Below, one piece after another: positions 12,315-16,409 of a stretch of 34,644 nt of DNA. Under the pieces are notes generated by a model. That model had not been told where the DNA came from, ran no database searches, and was given only the letters and a program-made list of their open reading frames with translations. Position numbers and translations under genes: made by a program. The DNA is from Deltaproteobacteria bacterium (GTDB lineage: Bacteria > Desulfobacterota > Desulfobulbia > Desulfobulbales > SURF-16): the NCBI GenBank assembly GCA_030667965.1, contig DAOUUW010000011.1, positions 1 to 34,644 on the forward strand, given 5' to 3'. Within the stretch, counting starts at the first letter, position 1, and each line of letters begins with the position of its first letter.

Positions 12315-12689
12315 ATGACAGGAAAAAAGATTCTGGTCATCGAGGACAACGAGCTCAACCTCAAACTTGTTCGTACTCTGCTGGAGATGGCCGACTATAC
12401 CGTACTGGCGGCCGGCAATGCCGAACAGGGTATTGCTCTGGCCCGTGATGCCTCTCCCGATCTCATCCTCATGGACATCCAGTTGCCGGGGCTTGACGGA
12501 TTAAGTGCCACCAGGAACATTCAGGCCGATCCTCAGCTCAGCCATATCCCCATTATTGCCGTCACATCATTTGCCATGGAAGGGGATCAGCAGAAGGCCT
12601 TTGATGCGGGATGCACTGGATATATTGCCAAGCCCATAGACACCCGTAATTTCATAAACCAAGTCAACACCTACCTGGAGAGCAAATAA
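12315..12689 (+). CDS. single-domain response regulator (CheY/DivK-like)
   Basis: A 124-residue stand-alone receiver domain. The acidic pocket is Glu10-Asp11, the phosphoacceptor is Asp54 in LILMDIQLPG, and the switch residues are Thr84 (VTSFAM) and Lys106 (YIAKP). There is no output domain, so it signals by protein contact or relays phosphate. The sequence style (ILVIEDNELNLKLV, PLDG-like loop) is closest to DivK-type receivers. Its stop codon is one base before the start of the first rhodanese gene, so the two are almost certainly co-transcribed. The membrane kinase at 14499 is the nearest candidate partner. No strong ribosome-binding site is visible. Confidence 0.92.
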   Translation: MTGKKILVIEDNELNLKLVRTLLEMADYTVLAAGNAEQGIALARDASPDLILMDIQLPGLDGLSATRNIQADPQLSHIPIIAVTSFAMEGDQQKAFDAGCTGYIAKPIDTRNFINQVNTYLESK

Positions 12690-12690
12690 A

Positions 12691-13506
12691 ATGCCTTTTC
12701 AGGAGGGTAAACAATTTCAGCGAATTTCCCGCCCAATGCGTCTCCTTGTTGCATTTCTCGCCATTATTCATCTGCTGAGCATATCCCCTGCGTTTGCCCG
12801 GGAATTGCAAATCATCACCGCACCTGAAGTAAAAAACATGATGGAAAACGACCCGAGGGTAGTGGTCATTAACGCCTTAAGCAGCATCGAATACAACTCA
12901 CTGCATATTCCCGGTTCTATCAATATTCCCGTGGTCGACTTTCGCACTTCCAAGCTGCTTCCCGAAGATAAATCAACCCCCTTGATCACTTACTGCATGG
13001 GGCATAACTGACCATACGGCCCCAGGACTGCAAGGATTGCAGTGGAGCTTGGCTATACCAATGTGTATTGTTTTAAGGGCGGCATCCCGGAATGGCGCAC
13101 TTTCAATTATCCCTTGATGGAGGATGAAGATTATCCGAGCATTAAAATAAACAAAATCAGCCCCAAAGCCCTCTACGGGCTCCTGCAAAAAGACAGCTCT
13201 ATTTTTATCCTCGATGTCTGTCCCATTGACTGCGAAAGAGACCATCTTTACATCGAAAATTCCGTTATATGCCCCATGGTCTATCTTGAAGACTGGTACC
13301 ATAATATCCCGAAAGACAGAGACATCGTCATTATTGACTGGGCCAACAAAAAATCACTCGTTGCGGGAAAATTCCTCAAGAAAAAGGGCTATAAGGTCAT
13401 CGGCAGCCTCAAAGGAGGACTCCTTCGATGGCATGCGGAAAACATGCCGGTTGTCGAGGTGAAAGACCCTCTCAAACATATCACTAATATTCCGTGCACA
13501 CATTGA
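12691..13506 (+). CDS. secreted selenocysteine-containing double-rhodanese protein 1 (TGA at 13009-13011 read as Sec)
   Basis: Two open segments (12691-13008 and 13012-13506) lie in one frame, separated only by TGA. Read through, they give 271 residues: a signal peptide (core LLVAFLAIIHLLSISPAFA, possibly starting at Met17) and two rhodanese domains. In domain 1 the catalytic loop is Cys102-Met-Gly-His-Asn-Sec107, directly followed by PYGPRTARIAVELGY and GGIPEW, the conserved second half of the fold. As recalled, relatives with a Cys-x4-Cys loop have cysteine at this place. In domain 2 the catalytic Cys is replaced by Asp (IIDWANKKS), so it is probably structural. The likely role is periplasmic sulfur or selenium transfer, or redox chemistry. 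The alternative, a nonsense mutation, is disfavoured by the identical arrangement in the next gene. Confidence 0.85.
13009..13043 (+). promoter_or_regulatory. UGA-Sec codon with SECIS-like hairpin, gene 1
   Basis: After TGA (13009-13011), ACTGCA (13027-13032) and TGCAGT (13038-13043) form a perfect 6-bp stem closed by the 5-nt loop AGGAT. The loop starts 21 nt after the TGA, within the usual 16-37 nt window for bacterial SECIS elements, and carries G in its first two bases. The same element follows the TGA of the downstream paralogue. Confidence 0.72.
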
Positions 13507-13507
13507 C

Positions 13508-14350
13508 ATGAAAAAATTATCCTGGTTATACTGTTTTTCAGCAATCCTGCTGCTGGTCACGCTCCTCGCATTTCCAGGAAGCTCTAACGCTTCTGAACCA
13601 TCTCTGGAAGGGTATACGGATATTACGGCGCCGGAGCTGAAACAGATGATTGACGACGGCGACAAAATTTTGCTCATCAATGTTCTCAGTGAAATTGAAT
13701 TTAACATCCAGCATATCACCGGCTCCATTAATATTCCGGTCATCGATATGCTCGGCACAGAGCAACTTCCCGAGGACAAAAATATCCCCCTTGTCTTTCA
13801 TTGCCTGAGCAACAGGTGAAACTATGGTAAAAAAGCCGCAAGGATTGCGGTGGCACGAGGCTACAAAAAAGTTTACAATTTTATTGGCGGTGTTCCGAAA
13901 TGGCGTTTCTTTAATTTCCCCATGACCGAGGATAACAAATGGCGGGACATAAAAGTGGCAAAAATCCCTCCAGAGAAGTTTCAACAGATCCTTTCCGAAG
14001 AACAAGACATCTTCCTTCTCGATGTACGAAGCCTGGATGCAGAATCGTTGAAAGATGAAAAATTCGTCTTCAAATTCAACAACTCCTCCATGTCAGGCAG
14101 CTATATAAAAGGGGCCTTGCACTGTCCCCTTCTCGCCCTGGAGGAAAACTATCATTTTATTCCCAAAGATCGCAAGGTTATAATAACCGACTGGATCATG
14201 AAACAATCTATTATTGCCGCCAAATTTCTTTCTTCCAAAGGCTATGAAGTCGTGGGAGTTTTAAAGGGAGGATCAGCCCGCTGGCAGACAGAACAAATGC
14301 CGCTGATACAGAGCGAGAACAAACTGCATAAACAACTTTTATGTGATTAA
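13508..14350 (+). CDS. secreted selenocysteine-containing double-rhodanese protein 2 (TGA at 13817-13819 read as Sec)
   Basis: A paralogue of the preceding gene, starting one base after its stop. Segments 13508-13816 and 13820-14350 share one frame around TGA and give 280 residues. There is a signal peptide (WLYCFSAILLLVTLLAF). Rhodanese domain 1 has the loop Cys99-Leu-Ser-Asn-Arg-Sec104, followed by NYGKKAARIAVARGY and GGVPKW. In degenerate domain 2, Asp stands in for the catalytic Cys (IITDWIMKQS). The two proteins have diverged clearly outside the conserved blocks, so this is not a recent duplication, yet the TGA has been kept at the homologous codon. The start lacks a good ribosome-binding site, so coupling to gene 1 is likely. 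Function is inferred as for gene 1. Confidence 0.85.
13817..13851 (+). promoter_or_regulatory. UGA-Sec codon with SECIS-like hairpin, gene 2
   Basis: After TGA (13817-13819), GCCGCA (13835-13840) and TGCGGT (13846-13851) pair, with one G-U pair at the base, and enclose the same AGGAT loop. The spacing from the TGA is again 21 nt. Compared with gene 1, a U-A pair has become C-G by changes in both arms (13029/13041 versus 13837/13849), both at third codon positions. Confidence 0.72.
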
Positions 14351-14498: not shown

Positions 14499-16409
14499 AT
14501 GAACCCCTCCCTGCCTCATGCCGGCGAAAAACACGATAAAGGACCGCACAGAACAATTATCCGCAGGATCGTCCTCCTTTTCATCCTGCTCATTGCCATG
14601 ATCATCGGCAATGCCATTTTCTCTTCCATTCAGGAAAACAAAAAAGTCAATGAACAGTTAAACAACAAACTGCATTCCGGGCAGGTTATCGCCAAGTCCA
14701 TCTTAAACACCGAACTGGACAAGCTCAGCATGATTTCCGGCATTGTTAAAGAACAAAACAAGAAATTTGTAGATTTTCTTGATTACGACAAGCTCAAACC
14801 AATCACCGTCATGCTGCAGACCATTGCCACCAAGCATAATATTGACATGGTCTTTCTCTTTGACGGAGACAACAACCTGCTGACCTGCAACCGCCTGGGC
14901 ACTGATTTCGCCCATTCCGACCTCTATAAAATATTTACAAAAAACCACGAAACCCAATTAGGCATTCAAGAAATACCTGTCAGCATCCTTGAACTGCAGA
15001 AGTTGTCAGACAAAGTTGTACCATATCAGAAAAAAATCCTTGCATTCCAATCAATTATCCATCTTTTGCACGACTCCGGGGACATATACGGCCACATTGT
15101 CATGATCAAACTGATTAACGGCAACCAGCAACTTGCCGGCCAGATGTCCTCCATCAGCGGAACGGAAATTATATTTTTTAACCATGATATGCAGACGGCG
15201 TTGACCAGTTTTCCAAACACCCAGCTAACCTTTCCCTTGAACGACACCCTGATCCACAACTCCACTTCGTATGCAACCAGTACGATAGAGCTCAAAAACT
15301 ATGAAGAAAAAATTATCGGCCACTTAACCGTGGCCCTGGACCAAGAAAATTTCATCCTGCAGAGACGACGATTGATCACGACCAACCTCATTCCCTTCTT
15401 CGGCTCCGTGATAATTTCCATGGCCCTCTTTTTCCTGCTGCGTTTCCGCGTGTTCAACAAAATCAATCAGCTCATCATTGCCCTTCATCAGGTGACGGAA
15501 AAAAAAGGGAATTTAAGCATCAGGCTCCCCGAGCCAACTGACAGGGAAAAGGGGATTGACGAGGTCGAAAACATGGCCATCGACTTTAACGCCATGATGA
15601 ACACCCTGGAGGAGACATACAACCAGCTTATCAGGGCCAGGCAGGAAGCGGAGGTGGCAAATATCTCCAAGAGTGAATTTCTGGCCAATATGAGTCATGA
15701 ATTACGCACTCCCCTCAATGCGATCATCGGCTTTACGGAGATCGTCCTTGACAGACATTTTGGCAAACTCAATGCAACCCAGGAAGACTACCTCGGCGAC
15801 GTGCTTCAATCAAGCCGCCATCTTCTCTCGGTTATCAATGACATTCTCGACCTTTCCAAAGTGGAAGCAGGAAAACTCGAGTTGAACCTCTCCGAGTTTC
15901 ACCTTGGCGAGCTTCTTTCCAACAGCTTTATCATGATTAAGGAGAAAGCACAGCAAAACAACATCACACTCAATCTGGACGCAAAAGACAACCTGCCGGA
16001 AACTATTTTTGCAGATGAAAGGAAAATAAAACAGATACTCTTCAACCTCCTGGCAAATGCGGTTAAATTCACCAAACCAGGCGGTCACATTACATTGAAG
16101 GCACGCAACAGCGATATTTCGGACTGGCCCCTGAACACTTCCATAGACGACAGAGACTCCATTCTTCCGGAACGGAAACTCATCAAAATTTCCGTTATTG
16201 ACTCGGGGATAGGGATTCACAAAGAAGACCTGGAAAGAATATTCCTTCCCTTTGAACAGGCAGACGGATCAACAAGCAAATTATATCAGGGAACAGGCCT
16301 TGGACTGTCGCTGACCAAACGACTGGTAGAACTGCATAACGGACGAATCCGGGCGGAAAGCCGGGGAGGCGGCAAAGGCAGTACCTTCTCCTTTATCCTG
16401 CCGGTTTAA
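14499..16409 (+). CDS. membrane sensor histidine kinase with periplasmic sensor and HAMP domain
   Basis: A 636-residue kinase. A first membrane helix (about 24-43) leads to a periplasmic sensor region of about 250 residues that I cannot assign firmly, perhaps Cache-like. A second helix (about 298-316) is followed by HAMP to about 375 and a short coiled coil. HisKA has [16 protein letters not shown] with phosphoacceptor His400, and the HATPase domain has the N box ([11 protein letters not shown]), DSGIGI and GTGLGLSL. There is no receiver or DNA-binding domain, so phosphate must pass to a separate protein. The lone receiver at 12315 is the closest candidate. It lies 148 bases downstream of the second rhodanese gene, in the same orientation. 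Confidence 0.92.

Follow-up and report, generated by a model that had tools for sequence, protein, structure and literature searches.

Hairpins downstream of in-frame TGA codons as probable bacterial SECIS elements in tandem C-x4-U two-domain rhodanese genes

Introduction

The main text of a 2026 catalogue (PMC13188914) lists five forms of rhodanese selenoprotein, which carry the motifs UxxS, UxxG, CxU, a second UxxG, and, in TsoB, UxxxxU. The same text describes the bacterial selenocysteine insertion element (bSECIS) as an apical loop of 3 to 9 nt carried by an upper stem of 4 to 16 bp, with a G among the first two loop positions. The loop commonly has the form N1-G-[G/U]-N-N2, wherein N1 and N2 pair. 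The distance from the selenocysteine (Sec) UGA to the apical loop is given as 16 to 37 nt, and the minimum free energy as −7.5 kcal/mol or lower (PMC13188914).

Here we describe two adjacent genes, A and B, in a 34,644-nt stretch of DNA from a Deltaproteobacteria bacterium (hereafter, the window). An initial annotation of this DNA proposed that an in-frame TGA in each gene is followed by a SECIS-like hairpin, and that the two hairpins covary. The comparison with homologues described below indicates that both hairpins are, with high probability, bSECIS elements that direct Sec into tandem two-domain rhodaneses of a C-x4-U form.

Results

Two adjacent rhodanese genes each carry a single in-frame TGA

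The features of the locus, all on the forward strand, are as follows.

12315..12689, +, response regulator receiver protein upstream of A (Pfam Response_reg)
12691..13506, +, gene A, predicted two-domain rhodanese selenoprotein of 271 aa with U at position 107, translated with TGA as U
13009..13011, +, predicted Sec-TGA of gene A; TGA is kept in A homologues, and TGC or TGT is aligned in Cys homologues
13027..13043, +, putative bSECIS hairpin of gene A, 6 bp with loop AGGAU (or 7 bp with loop GGA)
13504..13506, +, ordinary TGA stop of gene A, an internal control that lacks a SECIS-like hairpin (fold of −2.2 kcal/mol)
13508..14350, +, gene B, paralogue of A, predicted two-domain rhodanese selenoprotein of 280 aa with U at position 104
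13817..13819, +, predicted Sec-TGA of gene B, from translation and aligned homologues
13835..13851, +, putative bSECIS hairpin of gene B, 6 bp with loop AGGAU (or 7 bp with loop GGA)
14499..16409, +, sensor histidine kinase (HisKA, HATPase_c) that follows B

Both proteins match the Pfam Rhodanese model (PF00581) in two stretches, with scores of 78.1 bits (A) and 86.5 bits (B) against a gathering cut-off of 22.2. The TGA codons reside in the first rhodanese domain, within its active-site loop, five residues past the catalytic Cys (C-x4-U), within the motifs Y-C-M-G-H-N-U (A) and H-C-L-S-N-R-U (B). Because the Cys position of the second domain reads D-W (I-I-D-W-A in A and I-T-D-W-I in B), the C-terminal domain is probably non-catalytic. 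A hydrophobic N-terminus is present in both proteins, which are probably exported rhodaneses. An AlphaFold model of A, built from a 16-row alignment, has a mean pLDDT of 84, and the fold that it matches best is that of the rhodanese-like protein 6mxv. No match was obtained when gene A was used as a query against viral contigs.

Without recoding, both genes appear truncated. Mechanically called ORFs indeed end at the two TGAs and resume at GTG codons at 13042 and 13850, as would be seen if the TGAs were true stops in truncated, split, or decaying genes. However, such a break would fall inside the active-site loop of a single rhodanese domain. Moreover, TGA occupies the identical codon in all 33 rows (25 loci) of the clade that includes A and B, with conserved protein on both sides, Cys stands at this place in relatives, and the genome carries the full Sec machinery. 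We therefore give the true-stop explanation almost no weight.

The machinery in question comprises SelA, SelB, SelD, and tRNA-Sec, each of which scores over its cut-off. The SelD gene of this genome (L174, C43) contains an in-frame TGA, and SelD is probably itself a selenoprotein. TGA also serves as an ordinary stop in 8 of the 22 window ORFs examined, gene A included, and none of these eight stops, that of gene A among them, is followed by a hairpin at −7.5 kcal/mol or better. The frame through the in-frame TGAs would be open whatever residue is inserted, so that readthrough by another route, such as a near-cognate tRNA or a reassigned code in which UGA encodes Trp, would yield the same ORFs. 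Yet relatives align Cys rather than Trp, TGA terminates other genes in the window, and tRNA-Sec is present, which together make such a route exceedingly improbable. As judged from these sequence features, the TGAs of A and B are very probably read as Sec.

The hairpins in the window are modest evidence by themselves

Direct reading of the DNA bears out the description given in the initial annotation, wherein each TGA is followed, at a TGA-to-loop distance of 21 nt, by a 6-bp stem closed by the loop AGGAT. In gene A, nucleotides 13027-13032 (ACTGCA) pair with 13038-13043 (TGCAGT) around the loop at 13033-13037, and in gene B nucleotides 13835-13840 (GCCGCA) pair with 13846-13851 (TGCGGT) around the loop at 13841-13845. 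The reported replacement of a U-A pair by a C-G pair is likewise found, with T13029 and A13041 of gene A corresponding to C13837 and G13849 of gene B, all at third codon positions. The outer pair is A-U in gene A and G-U in gene B, and the loop-closing pair (13032/13038 in A), whose two arms likewise lie at third positions, is A-U in each gene. RNAfold predicts the same hairpin in A and B with one additional A-U pair, resulting in a 7-bp stem and the loop GGA. As a gauge of chance within the window, 11 of 1322 TGA triplets on the two strands, a count that takes in A and B, precede a hairpin of 6 bp or more at −6.4 kcal/mol or better with its loop at offset 21 or 22.

Several observations indicate that these two copies alone constitute only modest to weak evidence for selection at the RNA level, and that the strength of the case comes from homologues. 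The window evidence is weak because the codons for Ala-Ala-x-x-Ala-Val (GCN-GCN-N6-GCN-GTN) are self-complementary and force four of the six stem pairs. In gene A, only the pairs 13029/13041 and 13032/13038 have third positions free on both arms. Furthermore, A and B are paralogues, and thus their likeness is not independent. Single-sequence folds give shuffle z values of −0.5 to −1.5, which are not significant and are uninformative. Covariation based on the A/B pair alone was dropped as an argument, since the peptide accounts for four of the six pairs.

These same facts raise the possibility that the hairpin simply follows from the conserved Ala-Ala-Arg-Ile-Ala-Val peptide and has no RNA role. 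Permutation of synonymous codons within each gene is compatible with such an origin, as an equally good hairpin arises in 11% of trials for A and 5% for B (p = 0.11 and 0.05). The comparison of TGA-containing and Cys-containing homologues, wherein the peptide is often shared, speaks directly to this explanation.

The hairpin is maintained in TGA homologues and lost in Cys homologues

Homologues were collected from searches of the family (22 genomes), the order (257 genomes), and a genome collection (48 loci). Once identical copies had been removed and a C-x4-[U/C] frame was required, the set comprised 104 genes, of which 52 carry TGA and 52 carry TGC or TGT at the site. Rows were kept if they had Cys at position −5, TGA, TGC, or TGT at the site, and sufficient downstream sequence. 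Double-Sec U-x4-U proteins (L178-L182) and rhodanese genes of other build (e.g., L001 and L043) lie outside this set. Throughout the set, the in-frame TGA aligns with Cys and the flanking protein sequence is conserved.

All six stem pairs are present in 40 of the 52 TGA genes versus 3 of the 52 Cys genes (Fisher p = 3e-14, a value that ignores kinship). At the pair equivalent to 13029/13041, the 52 TGA genes carry CG (27), TA (17), TG (3), GC (1), or GT (1), with only three unpaired, and at 13032/13038 they carry AT (27), CG (14), or TA (1), with ten unpaired. The corresponding numbers of paired Cys genes are 22 and 25 of 52. With the hairpin scan set to the published bSECIS limits and the expectation drawn from permuted synonymous codons, hairpins that reach −7.5 kcal/mol occur in 43 of the 52 TGA genes, where 9.1 are expected, and in 7 of the 52 Cys genes, where 3.8 are expected.

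A more restricted alignment of 42 of the 52 TGA rows (41 distinct), comprising those with bit scores of at least 124 plus L004, was used to assess covariation. The ten TGA rows outside it are the most divergent, and several are in another register. In the 42 rows, 98.4% of the cells are paired, and this value falls to between 18 and 60% when one arm is slid by 1 to 3 columns. The alignment pair 21/33 (equivalent to 13029/13041) is represented by CG (21), UA (16), UG (3), and GC (1), and the pair 24/30 (equivalent to 13032/13038) by AU (27), CG (11), and other combinations (3). The resulting covariation score is 0.372 compared with 0.185 for shuffled data, and none of 500 shuffles gave a score as high. 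Three of the pairs (20/34, 22/32, and 23/31) are invariant among the TGA rows, which is what a hairpin dictated by the peptide would produce, given that the codons force four of the six pairs. In contrast, the two synonymous pairs that covary strongly in TGA rows covary barely above shuffles in an alignment of 45 of the 52 Cys rows, often despite the same Ala-Ala-x-x-Ala frame. RNAalifold recovers exactly the six pairs from the 42 TGA rows and no structure from the 45 Cys rows. The structure is therefore conserved in Sec-encoding homologues but not in those that encode Cys.

Codon choice in the loop provides a second line of evidence. Where TGA genes have an Arg in the loop, its codon is AGG in 36 of 38 cases, versus none of the 7 Cys genes, and of the remaining 638 Arg codons counted in the TGA genes, 17% are AGG. 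The initial annotation had cautioned that loop identity might merely mirror the protein. This concern is answered by the finding that AGG is favored only in the loop of the TGA genes, which argues that the loop is more than a reflection of Arg-Ile. Genes of the TGA clade that lack the loop Arg (L062, L064, L065, L066, L069, and L114) have a loop that still starts with GG or AGT. Given this codon preference, the excess of hairpins over the permuted expectation, and the covariation confined to TGA rows, we regard a by-product of the peptide as a very unlikely explanation, although slightly less so than the alternatives considered above.

Twelve of the 52 TGA homologues do not have all six pairs in the register of A and B. 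The loop-closing pair is broken in L027, L028, and L029, which are closely related A genes from a single genus. Several divergent TGA genes (L145, L146, and L148-L152) instead have a stem of 5 to 6 bp and a 4-nt loop (GGTC, AGTT, or AGGT) one register off. The use of another register for stem and loop in these divergent genes argues that the element is a shape rather than a fixed sequence. Separately, in one Cys homologue with TGC at the site (L035), all six pairs form around a loop that contains G, with an energy of −12.0 kcal/mol; this hairpin (permutation p = 0.06) may have arisen by chance or may descend from an earlier SECIS element.

Paired changes recur during evolution of the family

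A tree built from 93 of the 104 proteins (those of at least 120 aa) requires at least six exchanges between TGA and Cys, of which well-supported branches force four. The 33 TGA genes akin to A and B fall into a single supported group, which lies near Cys genes of gammaproteobacteria (L071-L075 and L077-L079). On this tree, the pair 21/33 has undergone at least 11 state changes among the 42 TGA rows. In seven independent row pairs, the other arm follows the change in 5.3 on average and opposes it in none, with phylogenetic sign tests that fall short of the 0.05 level (median p = 0.06).

Taken together, the claim that covariation reflects selection on the RNA is supported by the homologues. As originally framed, it relied on a single difference between A and B, which is insufficient, and the evidence resides in two pairs only. 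A lack of conserved pairing among further TGA homologues had been named as the observation that would overturn the proposal, but pairing is retained there, with compensatory changes, and is lost in Cys homologues.

A sensor kinase gene is consistently linked to the rhodanese genes

In all 24 testable loci of the TGA clade (the clade has 25 loci, with L076 cut), the rhodanese gene is followed immediately, on its own strand, by a homologue of the sensor region of this kinase, with rhodanese-to-kinase gaps estimated at about −22 to 151 nt. The sensor-region homologue also adjoins 5 of the 8 nearest Cys genes (weakly at L075, E = 2e-5), and it is found beside none of the 20 more distant rows that have at least 800 nt of room. 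The loci considered for this linkage are L026-L033, L060-L075, and L113-L120. Even at L068 and L069, which differ in the transmitter part, the sensor region is retained, and a search of this region against Pfam gave no confident match. Upstream of gene A, a response regulator homologue with 66 to 76% identity is present in all six of the A/B loci examined (L055-L060). The histidine kinase is a probable signaling partner of the rhodanese genes, and its linkage suggests a role in redox or sulfur sensing. Because of this linkage, the rhodanese may be the input of a two-component system.

Discussion

The findings described above strongly support SelB-directed insertion of Sec at both TGAs. With the ribosome at the in-frame UGA, Sec-tRNA-Sec would be brought in by SelB, which would bind the apical (A)GG(A) loop of the stem 21 nt downstream and deliver Sec in place of termination. 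The expected products are two paralogous rhodaneses whose active N-terminal domain carries the catalytic Cys followed by Sec (C-x4-U). Sec might then act as the resolving partner of the catalytic Cys, either by accepting the persulfide or by forming a selenylsulfide. This redox or persulfide exchange between Cys and Sec is suggested by the motif, viewed in light of general rhodanese chemistry.

The rhodanese could, in turn, signal to the histidine kinase encoded by the adjacent gene. We tentatively propose, with somewhat more doubt than conviction, that A and B constitute a Sec-based periplasmic sensing device, wherein an exported C-x4-Sec rhodanese reads the sulfur or redox state and passes this information to the sensor region of the downstream kinase, with certain gammaproteobacteria using Cys where relatives of sulfate reducers use Sec. 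Because the linkage to a single sensor kinase is constant, a function becomes testable. Covariation at synonymous positions indicates that SECIS elements within coding regions are under selection separate from that on the protein, and a family rich in both Sec and Cys members offers a usable natural test set.

Comparison with known SECIS elements and rhodanese selenoproteins

When compared with the bSECIS consensus as presented in the main text of the catalogue, the hairpins of A and B agree in stem and loop size (a 5-nt loop on 6 bp or a 3-nt loop on 7 bp), in loop pattern (AGGAU, read as A-GGA-U), and in spacing (21 nt, or 22 nt to the GGA loop). The gene B hairpin has an energy of −8.2 kcal/mol for the helix alone and −8.7 kcal/mol with flanks. 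The bare helix of gene A, at −6.4 kcal/mol, is weaker than the −7.5 limit, which is reached only when flanking pairs are counted (−9.6 kcal/mol for 37 nt and −14.0 kcal/mol for 45 nt). A search of Rfam revealed no family that matches the hairpins, with chance hits only (E of 3.8 or worse) in the region. Apart from the weaker bare helix of gene A, there is no essential difference from the consensus as given there, and the hairpins are very probably further SECIS elements of a known kind.

The proteins appear to be less familiar. Rhodanese forms 1, 2, and 4 of the catalogue (U-x-x-S and U-x-x-G) resemble A and B in having a rhodanese domain with Sec, but, as judged by motif, their Sec occupies the position of the catalytic Cys itself. 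Rhodaneses with TGA at the catalytic Cys were also encountered during the searches. One (L001, C147), from the same genome as A and B, has the sequence Y-U-A-I-G-G-R-S followed by a hairpin, and another (L043) is apparently fused to a ferritin-like domain. The best NCBIfam match of gene A is form 3, rhodanese_LYCAU (NF041203, C-x-U), at 69.7 bits, with B scoring 53.2. Like this family, A and B have a catalytic Cys and then Sec, but they fall below its 115-bit cut-off and have Sec at +5 rather than +2. The genome also encodes a further C-x4-U rhodanese (L004/L183, C119; Y-C-A-S-G-T-U-W) with the same hairpin and the loop AGGTT.

TsoB (NF045694, U-x4-U, rhodanese/DsbD fusion-like) shares with A and B the place of Sec, five residues after the catalytic position. 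A and B have Cys at the catalytic position and a second rhodanese domain, whereas TsoB carries another Sec and a DsbD/thioredoxin part in their stead. Scores of 57.0 bits (A) and 53.8 bits (B) against a cut-off of 805 show that neither is TsoB, whereas the TsoB of a relative (L178), included as a control, scores 928 bits. In L178, the second Sec stands at the place equivalent to that of A and B, its TGA is followed by a hairpin in roughly the corresponding position, and A and B thus look like a Cys-first relative of TsoB that lacks the DsbD part. A two-domain rhodanese of ~280 aa with two TGAs (L182; Y-U-M-G-Y-R-U) and without DsbD is a double-Sec relative of A and B. The main text of the catalogue, as searched for CxxxxU and in its rhodanese rows, contains no C-x4-U form. 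Within this scope, C-x4-U is apparently an uncatalogued form of selenium-containing rhodanese, which adds a further rhodanese form to the list of selenoproteins.
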